From a virus, in IMG/VR virus record IMGVR_UViG_3300037189_013468, positions 1 through 30,428 of that record: a stretch of 30,428 bases of DNA. One strand, written 5' to 3'. Positions 9,917 to 30,148 of this stretch are shown here, in pieces; position 1 is the first letter of the stretch, and the number at the start of each line of letters is the position of its first letter. Made by a program: the position numbers and the translations under genes. The notes below the pieces were generated by a model. It did no database searches. It saw only the letters and a list, made by a program, of their open reading frames with translations, and was not told where the DNA came from.

Positions 9917-11206
9917 ATGACCACAGGAACAACCGGACCCACCGGATACACAGGCCCCACAGGCAATACTGGTGAACCAGGATTTGTTTACAGAACAGGA
10001 CCCACAGGCAGCACTGGTGCCCGCGGTGAGGCTGGTGTAAGTGACGTTCCTGGAGCCACAGGCCCACTGGGACAAACTGGTGCCACAGGAGCCACTGGCC
10101 TGAAGGGTAATACTGGAGCAACAGGACCAAGTGGTGAAATGGGTGCAACTGGTGCCGCTGGCGCCCCAGGGTCAGCAGCCAACACCGGTGCAACAGGTCC
10201 TCAAGGTGTTCCTGGTTTGGCCACACTCACAGGGGCAACTGGAGCAACAGGTGTAAAAGGGGACGCTGGCATCACAGGTCCTGCTGGGGAAACTGGCGCT
10301 CAGGGTGAACAGGGTCCTATGGGTGAAACTGGCGCTGATGGGGCTGCTAGCACAGTGCCTGGACCCACAGGCGCAACTGGAAGCAGAGGATCCACAGGCA
10401 GCACTGGTGCTGCTGGTGTTGCTGGATCCACTGGTGCAGCAGGAGCCGCTGGTGTAGCTGGCACCCGAGGCAGCACAGGTGCCACAGGTGTACCAGGAAC
10501 TGCTGCCCTTACAGGAGCCACTGGTCCCCGAGGAGTGCCTGGCACAGCCACCCTTACAGGAGCCACCGGAGCCACTGGTGCCCGTGGTGTAGCAGGAATC
10601 ACCGGTGCTCCTGGACTTGCAACAAACACTGGTGCCACAGGTGCCACGGGTGTGGCAGGACTTGCCACAAACACTGGTGCCACAGGCGCCACGGGTATGC
10701 CAGGACTTGCAACAAACACTGGTGCCTCAGGTGCTACCGGTGCCACAGGAGTTCAAGGCCCTGCAGGTGTTTCAGGCCCCACTGGCCCAGGTGGTGAAGC
10801 CAGCAACACAGGTGCAACAGGTTCCACAGGTGAAACTGGTGCTACCGGAGCTAGTGCAATGGTTCTGGGTGACAGTGTATTGTGTTTGCCGGAACAGGAT
10901 ACTCCTGTGTTTGTTGCCACCAGTTCCAGCATAGTAAGTGTGAGAGTTATGGCTTACTCACAGGGTTATGAAACCAGTGTCACAGATGTTGAGGACGCTC
11001 AGGCATGCGAAATTATTGCTGTTCGCAATTTTAGATTAAACACTGTGGATTTTACTGTTTATGGTGTTGTATTCAGCAGTGTGGAAGCACTCAGTTCTTT
11101 CAATGCCAATTGGCACAACAACAGAATTACTATTACGGCCAAACCCACCAGTTTGGAAAATTCAGTGCGAATCAAATGCGTTGGTTTTGAAATCACTGCA
11201 ATCTAA
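9917..11206 (+). CDS. Collagen-like tail fibre protein
   Basis: About 310 of the 429 residues are Gly-X-Y repeats rich in GAT, GPT and GXTG triplets, the bacterial/phage collagen-like pattern in which Thr and Ala replace hydroxyproline. Such regions form trimeric triple helices and serve as rigid fibre shafts. The last ~115 residues (from about [14 protein letters not shown]) form a beta-rich globular tip, the probable receptor- or sugar-binding part. A short [13 protein letters not shown] tract starts immediately after Met, so the attachment domain is minimal. GAGG lies about 9 nt before the ATG. It follows the nucleotidyltransferase by 13 nt and precedes another fibre gene. Fibre role is inferred from composition and context. 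Confidence 0.8.
10613..10747 (+). repeat. Three tandem 45-bp repeats in the collagen-like gene
   Basis: Copies begin at 10613, 10658 and 10703. Each encodes GLATNTG followed by GATGATG-type triplets (15 residues). The near-identity at the DNA level makes length change by slippage or recombination likely. Confidence 0.75.
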
Positions 11207-13246: not shown

Positions 13247-13648
13247 GTGGTGGAGTGGTGGATAGTCAATTCCATTTCACACCTCAATTCATATCCTGGG
13301 CACAAGCTCTATTTGTTTTGGGATGGTGTGGACAGAATGTTTAAGGCCCCACTCTACAGGCATGTGATGGGCCCTGAGTTCGAGGCATGGGCCAAAAACA
13401 GCTTACAGGCCAAATGGGAAATTACTCTGGGAGCAGAAAGCTACATAGAGTTTGAATCCGAAGAAGATTGTGCTGCCTATAACCTTGCTTGGTATGAACA
13501 GGTGGCGAACCATACGGTGGGTTATAAAGTACGTGCCACTGTTGATGCGTCCGTTTTTTATTGTCCTTATGTCCCTTTGACTACAACTGGTGTGATAATT
13601 GATACCACCACAATGACAGAAATTACACAAGGCCCAAATAGTATCTAA
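13247..13648 (+). CDS. Chimeric ORF ending in a major-capsid-protein segment
   Basis: The 133-residue ORF has two parts. Residues ~17-90 contain HKLYLFWDGVDRMF and YIEFESEEDCAAYNLAWYEQ, which look like a small phage protein with an EFESEEDAxxxxL-W helix. From VGYK (91) onward it aligns with residues 328-363 of the gp23 encoded across the terminator: VGYK, YCPYVPLT and GVIID are identical, about 20 of 36 positions. It ends EITQGPNSI instead of continuing into the capsid C-terminus. DNA identity is low, so the copy is old. The start is uncertain: GTG 13247 or 13250 lack a ribosome site, and ATG 13337 is possible. It may be a capsid-interacting protein or a remnant. Confidence 0.6.
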   Translation: MVEWWIVNSISHLNSYPGHKLYLFWDGVDRMFKAPLYRHVMGPEFEAWAKNSLQAKWEITLGAESYIEFESEEDCAAYNLAWYEQVANHTVGYKVRATVDASVFYCPYVPLTTTGVIIDTTTMTEITQGPNSI

Positions 13649-23463: not shown

Positions 23464-25605
23464 TTATGACATATTCAAGAAGCCACGATTGGTTGTGGAT
23501 CTCAGATTGTTTACTGCTCCAATCAGTTCATTGAGTTTGTTCTCTACTGTGCCTCCTGGTCCCAAATGTTGAGCTACTTGAGCCATGCTGCTATCCATTT
23601 TCACCATAGTATCTCTGAATGCCACCATTTCTGCTGATGGTGCTCCTCCACCTGCTGCTGGAGCAGCGTCTCCTCCACCCAACAAACCAAAATAACCAGC
23701 TGCGCCGCCCAAAGCTCCTCCCAATAGTGCTCCCCAAGGACCCAACATCATACCCAAGCCTGCTCCCATGCCAGCGCCAGATAGAGCTCCTCCCAATCCT
23801 GTATAACCTGCCCCAGTGGCCATTGCACCCAAACCAGCACCAGCTAATCCTAATCCAGCACCACCCAGTGCCCCGCCCACGCCCATTCTGGGAATGCCTC
23901 CTCTGGCACCTGCTGCTGGAGCCATAGGAGGCACTGCTGGGGGAGTACCCAATCCTGGCGCGGCACCTGCACCAGCCAACCTTTTGGAAAGGCTCCTATA
24001 GCCTAGATAACCTGCTCCCAACCCTAACAAGGTTCCTGCATTATCCATTATCCCCTGGCCTAATGCCCCAGCAGCTCCGCCCAGACCTGATGCTCCTGCT
24101 ACACTATTCGCTGCTTGCGCCAATCCTGCTATCCTACCAGTTAAAAACGTAAGTGCAGGAGCAGCTTGCCGCATTATTGCTGCTTCCATAGCCCCAGATG
24201 CTGATGCTATGTTGTTTTGAGCTCTATATAAGTTTTCAGTTTGCTCAGATAAAAATCTTTCTCCACGTGCAGCTAGTTCAGCACGCCTGCGTCTTTCAGC
24301 AAGCTCAGCTTCACTTCCTGGAGGGGCGCGTGTAGCAACACGACCTACATCCATCATATCAGCTAATTGAGTTGTCATTGCTTGCGCTGCACCTGTTCGA
24401 CCGTAAGCAAGACCAGTTCCGTAATCCATTGCAAATTGTTGCTGATATCGACTTAAATTGGCTCGTTGTTGCTGAGATCCTATTTCCTCTGTGCGTCCTT
24501 CTCTGATGGCTGCAACTATTTCATCAGCTTCTCCCCCCATTGTTGTTCTAGCATAAGCTGTGGCTTGTGTAGGTGCTCTTGTAATCGCCTCCATCAAAAA
24601 CCCTTCTATCAAGTCGTCAGCCATTCCCATACTTGTCAGCTTAATTTTAGCTTGTTCCTGGGCAGCTAGTTGCTCAGGACTTAGTTGTGCCTGTAGTAAT
24701 CGTAGTCTGGCACTCTGCTGAACTCTTCTTGCTTGCTCTCGTTGGCGCCTAACATCTATACCTGTGAGTATGCTTTGAGACTGCATAAGATTTACCAGTT
24801 CAAGATTGCTTGTTCTGCGTTCCTCTTCGCTGATCATAAACAGTCTGCCGCTCATGCGTTGCTGATCCATCATATCAGCCATTGCTTCAGCACCTTGAGA
24901 ACCCGTCATCCCAATTCTAGCAAATGCGTCTTGTAAGCCTCGCATACTCTCAAAGAACCGAGATTCGCCCTGTGCCATCAGAGTTTGGCCGTATTGAGAA
25001 ACCAATCTAGATCCATCCTCTAAACTGATACCGGCAGTTCTAATACTGGAAATCATACCTGTAATACTACCGTCAAATAACACACCACTTTGGATCATAG
25101 AGCGGTAGGTTTTACCACCTTCTAGAAATCTGTCCAGGAGAGCTGAGGCTGCTGCACCCAACGCCATGAATGCTATTCCTACTCCCCGGCTCACCCCAGG
25201 CAGTCTGGCCATACTGGAAGTGACCCCTTCCACAGCTCTTGGTAATTTATTAAGTGGGTCTGTACTACCTGTGATCAGTCCAGCCAGATTATCTTTAGTA
25301 CTTCGGATGCTGTAGCTAAGATCCCTCAAACTCTCTTTGTAGGATTTCCCAACATCACTCAAATCTTCGGCATGCTCCCTTAGTTTCCTACTTTGCTTGC
25401 CTATACTATCAGCAGCTACTTTTGCCCTGTTGTCTAACTCTTTAACTCCATCCAAATCCACCTTGAATTTGGCCGCCATTTTGGACAAGATTTGGTTGTT
25501 CTTGTCCGTCTTGGCTGTGAGCGATCTAAGCGTGTCCTCCTGCGCCCAAGACCTAGACTGCTCAGGATCAATTTTTATATTATTGGTGACTGTCACATTG
25601 TCCAT
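23464..25605 (-). CDS. Tape-measure-like tail protein
   Basis: The 713-residue protein has long helical, coiled-coil-prone stretches (residues ~20-120 and ~250-480). A Gly/Ala-rich hydrophobic region follows (~500-660: GGAGLGLAGAGLGAMATGAG and similar), and then a short helical tail (ENKLNELIGAVNNLRS). This mix of coiled coil and small hydrophobic transmembrane-like segments is typical of tail tape measure proteins, which set tail length and help DNA enter the cell. T4 gp29 is 590 residues but I see no clear sequence match. The neighbour across the divergent promoter is the gp26/gp51 pair, which fits chaperone genes beside a tape measure. Other internal virion proteins remain possible. Confidence 0.5.
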   Translation of the reverse strand: MDNVTVTNNIKIDPEQSRSWAQEDTLRSLTAKTDKNNQILSKMAAKFKVDLDGVKELDNRAKVAADSIGKQSRKLREHAEDLSDVGKSYKESLRDLSYSIRSTKDNLAGLITGSTDPLNKLPRAVEGVTSSMARLPGVSRGVGIAFMALGAAASALLDRFLEGGKTYRSMIQSGVLFDGSITGMISSIRTAGISLEDGSRLVSQYGQTLMAQGESRFFESMRGLQDAFARIGMTGSQGAEAMADMMDQQRMSGRLFMISEEERRTSNLELVNLMQSQSILTGIDVRRQREQARRVQQSARLRLLQAQLSPEQLAAQEQAKIKLTSMGMADDLIEGFLMEAITRAPTQATAYARTTMGGEADEIVAAIREGRTEEIGSQQQRANLSRYQQQFAMDYGTGLAYGRTGAAQAMTTQLADMMDVGRVATRAPPGSEAELAERRRRAELAARGERFLSEQTENLYRAQNNIASASGAMEAAIMRQAAPALTFLTGRIAGLAQAANSVAGASGLGGAAGALGQGIMDNAGTLLGLGAGYLGYRSLSKRLAGAGAAPGLGTPPAVPPMAPAAGARGGIPRMGVGGALGGAGLGLAGAGLGAMATGAGYTGLGGALSGAGMGAGLGMMLGPWGALLGGALGGAAGYFGLLGGGDAAPAAGGGAPSAEMVAFRDTMVKMDSSMAQVAQHLGPGGTVENKLNELIGAVNNLRSTTNRGFLNMS

Positions 25606-25684: not shown

Positions 25685-26521
25685 ATGACCAATCCGTTAA
25701 ATCAATACTTTAGAGTGCCCAAAATTTACACAAGCTTGCCCTCTGGAGGGGCCTTTTATCCCAATAATTTCCTAGAAGCTGCACCCAATGGTGAACTTGC
25801 TGTCTATGCACTTAGCGCCCTTGATCAGATCCTCCTAAAGACACCTGATGCACTACTAAATGGAGAGAGTCTACTCAAAGTAGTTAAAAACTGCGTGCCT
25901 GGAATCAGCGATCCTAAGTTACTGGTTGAACCTGACATCAAGACATTGTTGCTAGCTATAAAGGTAGCCAGCACTGGTCCCTCCAGTGAATACCAAGTTG
26001 AGTGTCCCAAATGTGACACTCAACACACGTTTGATGTGAATCTTAGTAATATTTTGGACACCCTAATAGAAACAGACACAGATCCCAAAATTGATTTCAA
26101 TGGCGAACTGATTATACATGTGAGACCCTACAACTTTGAACAGAGAAATTTACAACTATTAAATGAAATAGAAGAAAATAGAGCTTTGAGGATCATTGAC
26201 GCAAATAATGAGTTGGACGATACTAATAAAATGACTGAGGTAGCCAAGTATGTGAGTAAAATGGCTGACAGGACATTCAGCTTAGTAGCCAAAAGTATCA
26301 CATCTATTACTGTAGCAAAAACAGGTGAATCTGTTACAGACCCTCAATATATTGCTGAATTTTTAAAAGGTATTACACAGGCACAAGCATCTGTTATCAT
26401 GGAAAAGATCAAAGAGCTAAATGAAAGCGGTCTTGCTGCTAAATCCAGCTTCATTTGCAGCAATTGTGGAAATGAATGGGACCAACCACTGGATTTCGAC
26501 CCAACCACTTTTTTCGGGTAA
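25685..26521 (+). CDS. 26: Baseplate hub subunit gp26-like, with split zinc ribbon
   Basis: The 278-residue protein opens MTNPLNQYFRVPKIYTSLPS and continues GAFYPNNFLEAAPNGE, TPDALLNGESLLKVVKNCVPGI and DIKTLLLAIKVAS. These segments agree with gp26 of T4-like marine phages as I recall them. Cys pairs CPKC (107-110) and CSNC (258-261) can form a zinc ribbon. gp26 is assigned to baseplate hub assembly. Its last codons are ACT TTT TTC GGG TAA; the T-TTT-TTC heptamer at 26509-26515 is a classical -1 slippery sequence, and the -1 frame is open into the next ORF. The protein may therefore exist also as a C-terminally extended form. The local sequence is AT-richer than its neighbours. Confidence 0.8.
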   Translation: MTNPLNQYFRVPKIYTSLPSGGAFYPNNFLEAAPNGELAVYALSALDQILLKTPDALLNGESLLKVVKNCVPGISDPKLLVEPDIKTLLLAIKVASTGPSSEYQVECPKCDTQHTFDVNLSNILDTLIETDTDPKIDFNGELIIHVRPYNFEQRNLQLLNEIEENRALRIIDANNELDDTNKMTEVAKYVSKMADRTFSLVAKSITSITVAKTGESVTDPQYIAEFLKGITQAQASVIMEKIKELNESGLAAKSSFICSNCGNEWDQPLDFDPTTFFG

Positions 26522-26554
26522 CGCTCCTGTCTGGTGATTCAGAAATGATCACCA
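26509..26554 (+). promoter_or_regulatory. Candidate programmed -1 frameshift site with downstream hairpin
   Basis: T TTT TTC (26509-26515) is in the correct phase for -1 slippage, one sense codon before the gp26 stop. A 7-bp stem, TGGTGAT (26532-26538)/ATCACCA (26548-26554), follows 16 nt later. After slippage the frame reads CGG GTA ACG and on to the stop at 26760, adding 81 residues. Confidence 0.55.
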
Positions 26555-26760
26555 ATTGTCTCAAGGACATGGAGCGTGATAGGGACAGAATAGAATCGGA
26601 TATAGCCAGCGTTGTATATTATATGAATGGAGGCTTATCCTTCACAGATGCCTATGGACTTAGTACTCAACAACTTAAACGACTGGGTGATACTATAACC
26701 ACTCATTTTGAAAAGCAGAATGAAGCTATTAAAAAGACACAGTCCAAACGACCTGGATAA
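26545..26760 (+). CDS. 51: gp51-like hub assembly protein / possible frameshift extension of gp26
   Basis: From the ATG at 26545 the ORF gives 71 residues (MITNCLKDMERDRDRIESDI, ASVVYYMNGGLSFTDAYGLS, then a helical Lys-rich tail). This small helical protein follows gp26 as gene 51 does in T4, and T4-like marine phages have similar short proteins there. T4 gp51 is 249 residues, so homology is not certain. The same frame is open from 26476, across the gp26 stop, so it could also be made as a -1 frameshift extension. The ATG is in the loop of a 7-bp hairpin and only GGTGA serves as a ribosome site, which would favour coupling or frameshifting over independent initiation. Confidence 0.6.
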   Translation: MITNCLKDMERDRDRIESDIASVVYYMNGGLSFTDAYGLSTQQLKRLGDTITTHFEKQNEAIKKTQSKRPG

Positions 26761-29419: not shown

Positions 29420-30148
29420 TTAGTAGCGATTCTCTTTAGGAATCGCTGTGCATTTTAGACCATGTCTTTTAGTAATAGTTCCTTTATTGGATTCAATACC
29501 ACAATACAGACACGTCGCACGTTGTTGTGGACCGCGTGGCCTCCTCAACTTCTCAAGAACATGCTGGGGAGTTTTCCTACCTTTTGTAGTAGCTCTGTAT
29601 TTTTCTCTTTTAGCCTTTGCTCCTTCAATACCATACAGTTCTTCCCAAGTCTTTCCTTTTTTAGCTACACTCATCAAAGCTCTGGTTTGTTCAGTATGTG
29701 TTTGTCCAAAGAAGCTATTGTTTTCTCCAGATCTATCAAGAAGGGCCAATGCTGCTTTTACATTGGCAATGGTTTGTTTGCTGCGTTTTTGCCCGCGATT
29801 CTTTTTACTGCTTTGAACCCTGGACGATTTAGTAACTATTTTTCCAGTAGATCCTTGTCCGCCGTCAGTTCTGTTGTGCAGGATTCCTGTGCCATTATCT
29901 ATTCTTCCCCACCATCTTATCAATCGCCTTTCCAAAGCGAAGGCACCCAGTTCAGTCAATCCTTGAGAGAGAAGAATAATTCTCCACCCTTCTTTTGGTA
30001 CTGGGACATTGTGTCGTTCTTTGTATCGAATACCTATACCTTTTCCTATATAGTAAGGTGTTCCTGCCGGACCATTTTTGGATGTGGTTTTTCTCAAATA
30101 AGCATAAACATAGAATCCATCAGGAATCTTATTGCGATAAATAGACAT
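29420..30148 (-). CDS. GIY-YIG homing endonuclease (Seg-like)
   Basis: The 242-residue protein has a GIY-YIG nuclease domain: YVYAYL (13-18), YYIGKG (32-37), Arg 41, Glu 73 in [12 protein letters not shown], and HNRTDGGQG (91-99). NUMOD3-type helices follow ([17 protein letters not shown] and nearby), then a C-terminal Cys-Cys-His-Cys zinc finger (213, 216, 229, 233). This is the free-standing homing endonuclease layout of T4 Seg proteins. It promotes its own spread by cutting phages that lack it. It lies beside gp46, is AT-richer than surrounding genes, and has its own late promoter, all consistent with recent arrival. AAGGGGGC stands 9 nt before the ATG. Confidence 0.9.

Follow-up and report, generated by a model that had tools for sequence, protein, structure and literature searches.

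The window analyzed here is a 30.4-kb virus record (30,428 nucleotides, taken at its full length) that carries a T4-type portal gene together with gp23 and gp15-like genes. Its gp26-like gene occupies positions 25685–26521 on the plus strand and encodes a 278-residue protein, hereafter the short form, which is predicted to be a tail-assembly chaperone (TAC-N). The protein matches PF12322 with an E-value of 6e-17 (62.5 bits, with a cut-off of 24.5) and the family phrog_150, labeled 'baseplate hub', with an E-value of 3.4e-21. On the opposite strand, across a short divergent intergenic region, lies a gene for a tape-measure-like protein of 713 residues (23464–25605, minus strand). Its match to phrog_167, 'tail length tape measure protein' (E 3.7e-10), bears out the preliminary description of the locus, in which a tape-measure-like gene had been placed across a divergent promoter.

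The slip site and the -1 reading frame

The 3' end of the gp26-like gene reads ...CCA ACC ACT TTT TTC GGG TAA, so that a slippery heptamer U UUU UUC in the X XXY YYZ phase (26509–26515) stands one codon ahead of the zero-frame stop (TAA, 26519–26521), exactly where the preliminary description had located it. The -1 frame is open, as also described there, from 26476 to the TAA at 26758–26760, and spans 83 codons counted from the heptamer, running past the zero-frame stop. The part that would be translated after a slip (26515–26760, plus strand; CGG GTA ACG ... TAA) specifies an extension of 81 residues and is recognized by its open frame, its conservation and its substitution pattern. The conceptual product of a simultaneous -1 slip is ...DPTTFF followed by RVTLLSGDSEMITNCLKDMERDRDRIESDIASVVYYMNGGLSFTDAYGLSTQQLKRLGDTITTHFEKQNEAIKKTQSKRPG and a stop, which amounts to 277 + 81 = 358 residues. 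The junction peptide expected from such a slip is ...DQPLDFDPTTFFR, and its zero-frame counterpart is ...DPTTFFG.

Ten canonical heptamers occur in phase among the 29 genes (28 kb) of the window, and the gp26 site is the only one of them followed by a -1 frame of at least 30 codons. A chance heptamer is ruled out by this unique long frame together with the conservation documented below. The -1 frame contains an ATG at 26476, 11 codons upstream of the slip site. It is unlikely to be a genuine gene start, because it sits within gp26 and its counterpart is absent from most relatives.

A model of the window protein obtained with AF2 has a pLDDT of 91 and strong matches among predicted gp26-type viral proteins, and a Foldseek search of the same model against the PDB returned nothing significant. 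The HK97 chaperone 2ob9 aligns to the model with a VIA-align Z of 6.5 and an rmsd of 4.8 over 100 of 107 residues; the fold match is only suggestive, since other helical matches score about as high. The structure 2ob9 is absent from the structure-match list of the gp51 model, and a sequence search of solved structures found no relative.

Several other features of the window were observed. A short open reading frame beside the gp23 gene (13247–13648) holds FYCPYVPLTTTGVIID, which is near YYCPYVPLTSSGVIID of gp23, and looks like a duplicated gp23 fragment within a different open reading frame. The structural gene region includes a collagen-like protein of 429 residues with Gly-x-Thr/Gly-x-x repeats (9917–11206). 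Two overlapping frames on the minus strand (102–1089) contain methyltransferase-like motifs, with NPPYG upstream and DNSCGEG downstream, and their order points to an enzyme that is split or permuted. A putative GIY-YIG homing endonuclease (YVYAYLRK...TPYYIGKG) was recognized by eye at 29420–30148 (minus strand).

Heptamer and -1 frame in related loci

Seventeen reference relatives were picked by similarity of their gp26 proteins (26–42% identity), the heptamer not being a criterion. Their hosts range from Agrobacterium, Sinorhizobium and Pseudomonas to enterics, Vibrio, Stenotrophomonas and Salicola. All 17 have an in-phase heptamer at the aligned position (T TTT TTT in one, T TTT TTC in the others), and in all 17 the homologous -1 frame is open for 71–82 codons from the heptamer. 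The end of the zero frame varies among them, from one to about a dozen codons past the heptamer. Upstream of the slip, the -1 frame has merely 0–3 open codons in 16 of the 18 reference loci.

The same arrangement recurs in environmental sequences. Among marine IMG/VR contigs, T TTT TTC followed by the -1 tail was found in 80 of 80, one tail being cut by the contig end, and T TTT TTC is also present in 16 of 17 freshwater contigs. Of the jumbo-type IMG/VR contigs, 71 of 80 share it; in the remaining nine its place is taken by A AAT TTT, followed by a homologous tail (KFFIRSL...). A AAU UUU is another canonical heptamer for two-tRNA slippage. Named phages with T TTT TTC include PhiW-14, S-SKS1, S-RIM8, Bakedbeans and Aeromonas CC2, and T TTT TTT occurs in phiM19 and Pelagibacter HTVC008M. 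Overall, the heptamer and a conserved -1 protein sequence are found together in about 190 related loci, and the check proposed with the preliminary description, that homologues keep both the heptamer and the -1 overlap, is decisively passed. No heptamer was found in the frame of one weak relative (L202), which may be truncated or disrupted, and an IMG/VR scan based on Bakedbeans found no relatives.

Codon choice and substitution pattern

The codons of the heptamer are strongly constrained. In 48 clusters defined at less than 60% protein identity, the first Phe codon is TTT in 48 of 48 and the second is TTC in 45 of 46, against a background TTT/TTC usage of 63/37, although the loci are related and the counts are hence not fully independent trials. 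Conserved residues elsewhere in the gp26-like gene use mixed codons. The codon that precedes TTT TTC in the 80 marine loci is AGT (45), TCT (29), GCT (4) or AAT (2), and always ends in T.

Differences between aligned loci follow the codon positions of the -1 frame. Over 62 disjoint pairs, to which the same caveat of relatedness applies, the differences at the three -1 codon positions are 0.19, 0.12 and 0.32 in the first ten codons past the slip, and 0.15, 0.07 and 0.38 further downstream. Judged by this pattern of substitution, the -1 frame is shown to be coding from the slip onward.

A stem-loop downstream of the slip site

The 7-bp hairpin that had been noted after the slip site (GGTGATT/GATCACC, 26533–26553) is present, but it forms the tip of a larger putative frameshift-stimulating stem-loop (26521–26577, plus strand), the basal stem of which begins 5 nt past the heptamer, a classical spacing. 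The whole structure has a minimum free energy of -25.4 kcal/mol and a z-score of about -3.4. In 48 cluster representatives, the 70 nt past the slip have a mean z of -1.81 versus -0.35 in controls from the same loci (p 3.5e-9), and z falls below -2 in 42% of the post-slip stretches versus 7% of the controls. Scans of the window with Rfam and for tRNAs found nothing.

Covariation was assessed in eight loci, namely the window together with seven of its near relatives that have comparable frames; some of the eight had already been recognized as folding well. The proportion of pair cells kept is 86.6%, which none of 500 shuffles matched and which drops to 49% at most when the structure is slid by 1–3 columns; the test leans towards structure, since the loci were preselected and their alignment also served to derive the structure. 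Some lineages have a weak stem or lack it, as expected for an auxiliary stimulator.

A separate DNA-conserved stretch of about 700–800 bp was observed in several jumbo phages between the -1 frame and the endonuclease VII gene (L005:5038-5873, L006:4044-4846, L007:4041-4723, L008-L011 and L016:4969-5760). It is roughly 67–80% conserved between genera, partially so with L016, has mostly no long open reading frames and no Rfam match, and is a candidate non-coding element. The 515-bp gap at the same place in the window has no detectable similarity to it.

Origin of the downstream frame

The alternative that retains most credit, though still improbable, is that the downstream frame is a separate small gene, translated through reinitiation or from a start codon of its own. 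Many genome annotations treat it in that way ('gp51 baseplate hub assembly catalyst' or 'hypothetical protein'); TAATG or ATGA overlaps occur in Cygsa01, Vibrio D524, 121Q, Phosso and Atu_ph07, and the window itself offers the ATG at 26476. Against it, many genomes have no ATG, GTG or TTG ahead of the conserved -1 motif (there is no ATG before the RxxLLxxxPEEI-type motif in phi30-3, Munch, RaK2, GAP32, CBB and XaC1, for example), and the -1 frame is coding right from the slip. A separate gene with its own start is ruled out as a general rule by these two observations. Such a gene would also leave the frozen codons of the heptamer and the switch to A AAU UUU unexplained.

Transcriptional slippage at the six consecutive T, which would alter the frame in the mRNA, is more doubtful still. 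The site is a T run, of seven residues in RAS14 and phiM19, but bacterial polymerases usually slip only on longer A or T runs. The A AAT TTT of the nine jumbo-type contigs offers just four T after three A and fits tandem tRNA slippage, the codon phase is kept everywhere, and the downstream stem-loop fits stimulation of the ribosome. Finally, a by-product of a conserved terminal Phe-Phe with a coincidental -1 frame, as the conservation of FF in the protein and the EFFELL with which T4 gp26 also ends might suggest, can be dismissed in view of the frozen Phe codons, the T that precedes TTT TTC whichever amino acid it encodes, the conserved -1 protein in the approximately 190 loci and the -1 codon-position signature.

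We therefore consider it very probable, from the comparison of sequences, that the locus encodes a programmed -1 ribosomal frameshift in the tail-assembly chaperone gene of a T4-related jumbo-type myovirus. The G/GT-like chaperone frameshift put forward at the outset is supported by the conserved heptamer, the coding -1 frame and the tape-measure-like neighbor. The majority of ribosomes would terminate at the TAA at 26519 and release the short protein of 278 residues. A minority, with tRNA-Phe in both the P and A sites, would slip from U UUU UUC to UUU UUU and continue with CGG GTA ACG..., yielding a predicted fusion of about 358 residues. If the products behave like lambda gpG/gpGT and T4 gp26/gp51, the tape-measure protein would be coated by many copies of the short form, the tail-tube subunit would be recruited by the extra domain of a few long copies, and neither form would remain in the virion. 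T4 and RB43 would make the same two product types from two genes, with gp26 as the short form and gp51 combining a short-type domain with the C-terminal extension.

Relation to T4 gp26 and gp51

Both T4 gp26 (208 residues) and gp51 (249 residues) belong to PF12322, and gp51 is a full-length paralogue of gp26 with about 50 additional residues. When the two are aligned to the fusion proteins, T4 gp26 stops at the slip (...KEFFELL) and gp51 runs on with the extension. The downstream frame, which the preliminary description had called gp51-like and joined to gp26, corresponds only to the C-terminal extension of gp51 and not to the whole protein. Homology of the extension holds for the cyanophage -1 tails, which match the gp51 C-terminus with an hhalign probability of 94% and an E-value of 2.9e-8 and also match phrog_634. 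The jumbo tails alone give an E-value of 0.01, with 0.26 for a reversed control, and direct homology of these tails to T4 gp51 is not established by sequence. The -1 frame of the window has no match to phrog_634.

The number of PF12322 genes differs between the two arrangements. Each of the 14 complete jumbo genomes that matched has exactly one copy (SCTP-2 has none above the cut-off), as does each of 10 further genomes with a frameshift or stop-start layout, and two were found in T4 and in RB43. The window, a fragment, holds a single PF12322 gene with its extension in the -1 frame, unlike the continuous gp51.

The cyanophage "gp51" is the frameshift tail, and T4 gp51 is the continuous long form. 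The S-RIM8 protein annotated as 'gp51 baseplate hub assembly catalyst' is the -1 tail begun at an internal ATG, and other cyanophage and pelagiphage 'gp51' genes are likewise annotated from a downstream start within the tail (L020:3732-3869, L023:3710-3874 and L219:1353-1490). For this reason, the start sites of 'gp51' are probably wrong in many public records. The remark that gp51 of cyanophages and marine vibriophage lacks the first approximately 200 residues (PMC3037559) would be explained in the same way, the 'gp51' of these phages being the -1 extension of a fused gp26. Both gp26 and gp51 have been listed as hub assembly chaperones, gp51 being required yet absent from the final particle, and some genetic work puts gp26 in the hub (PMC3004832).

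Variant lineages

Some members of the family depart from the common arrangement. The heptamer is missing in Cygsa01 (L022:3300-3482) and Vibrio D524 (L218:1315-1540), which have a TAATG stop-start overlap instead. In the Ackermannviridae Escherichia phage CBA120 (L214:1380-1600), the gp26 homologue ends ATT TTC ATT TAA; the site, G ATT TTC, is non-canonical, and the -1 frame is open, looks homologous and has no ATG. S-SCSM1 (L023:3685-3880) has an intact heptamer with a gp51-like tail in the +1 frame; its sister S-SKS1 shows the usual arrangement, which makes an indel or a sequence error possible. In 121Q, Phosso and Atu_ph07, the zero-frame stop overlaps an ATG, and reinitiation could add a free tail in these phages.

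Tentatively, with the balance slightly against it, the PF12322 family may represent a natural series of interchangeable routes to the same short and long pair: U UUU UUC or U UUU UUU with a covarying stem-loop, A AAU UUU, stop-start reinitiation (Cygsa01 and Vibrio D524), G AUU UUC without an ATG (CBA120), and duplication (T4 and RB43). If true, the series would display recoding being gained, shifted and replaced.

PmgB of phage P1 was considered as a frameshifting relative and rejected, as it has no heptamer near its end (L024:44492-45373). Its relationship to the gp26 family is weak: it matches PF12322 with an E-value of 0.008, and its family phrog_1854 matches the window gene with an E-value of 1.5e-4. 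The P1 pmgB gene is located upstream of the tape measure gene sit. PmgB is an essential tail protein proposed to be a tape-measure chaperone (PMC9024508).

Comparison with known systems

The findings support an extension of the G/GT logic known from long-tailed phages to the T4-related phages, among them jumbo phages and the abundant cyanophages and pelagiphages of the sea. For this group, a 2016 review words the rule as 'except T4' (PMC5009743). Many records appear to carry wrong starts or to miss the -1 tail gene. The fusion also offers a clear proteomic target, and the stem-loop is a candidate RNA stimulator.

Vladimirov, Gautam and Davidson (2022; Virology 566:9-15) are said to have identified the tail-assembly chaperone genes of T4-like phages, and frameshifting is reportedly conserved in several T4-like groups according to their work, with T4 using separate genes 26 and 51. 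A later paper credits these authors with the finding that TAC-N genes in T4-like phages carry poly-T -1 signals (PMC12846349), so that the earlier statement that no such report was known for gp26/gp51 is out of date. As described there, the T4-like TAC-N genes belong to the same gene family and carry the same kind of poly-T -1 signal as the window. The general finding of a frameshift in T4-like chaperone genes is already published; it may be extended here by the breadth of the device among jumbo phages, by the A AAU UUU heptamer, by a stem-loop that covaries and by the stop-start variants.

The programmed -1 frameshift of lambda gpG/gpGT was reportedly established by Xu, Hendrix and Duda in 2004. 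In the lambda model, the short form coats the tape measure and the long form recruits tube subunits (PMC5009743). The window shares with lambda a heptamer near the 3' end of the chaperone gene, an adjoining tape measure gene, and predicted short and long products. It differs in its PF12322 protein, in the U UUU UUC heptamer and in the strong stem-loop found in part of the PF12322 family. The lambda chaperone gene is upstream of the tape measure gene in the same operon, whereas the tape-measure-like gene of the window is divergent.

In Pseudomonas phage Adele and in the Vandenendeviridae/Andersonviridae, an invariant GTTTTT lies near the 3' end of TAC-N, and every genome inspected by the authors has an open -1 frame (PMC12846349). 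The poly-T near the 3' end of TAC-N and the open -1 frame of Adele resemble the window, but this phage belongs to another family. T4 itself has the same PF12322 proteins, with gp26 ending at the slip position and gp51 carrying the extension. In T4, however, these are the products of two divergently transcribed genes with no frameshift, whereas the window has one gene with a -1 tail.
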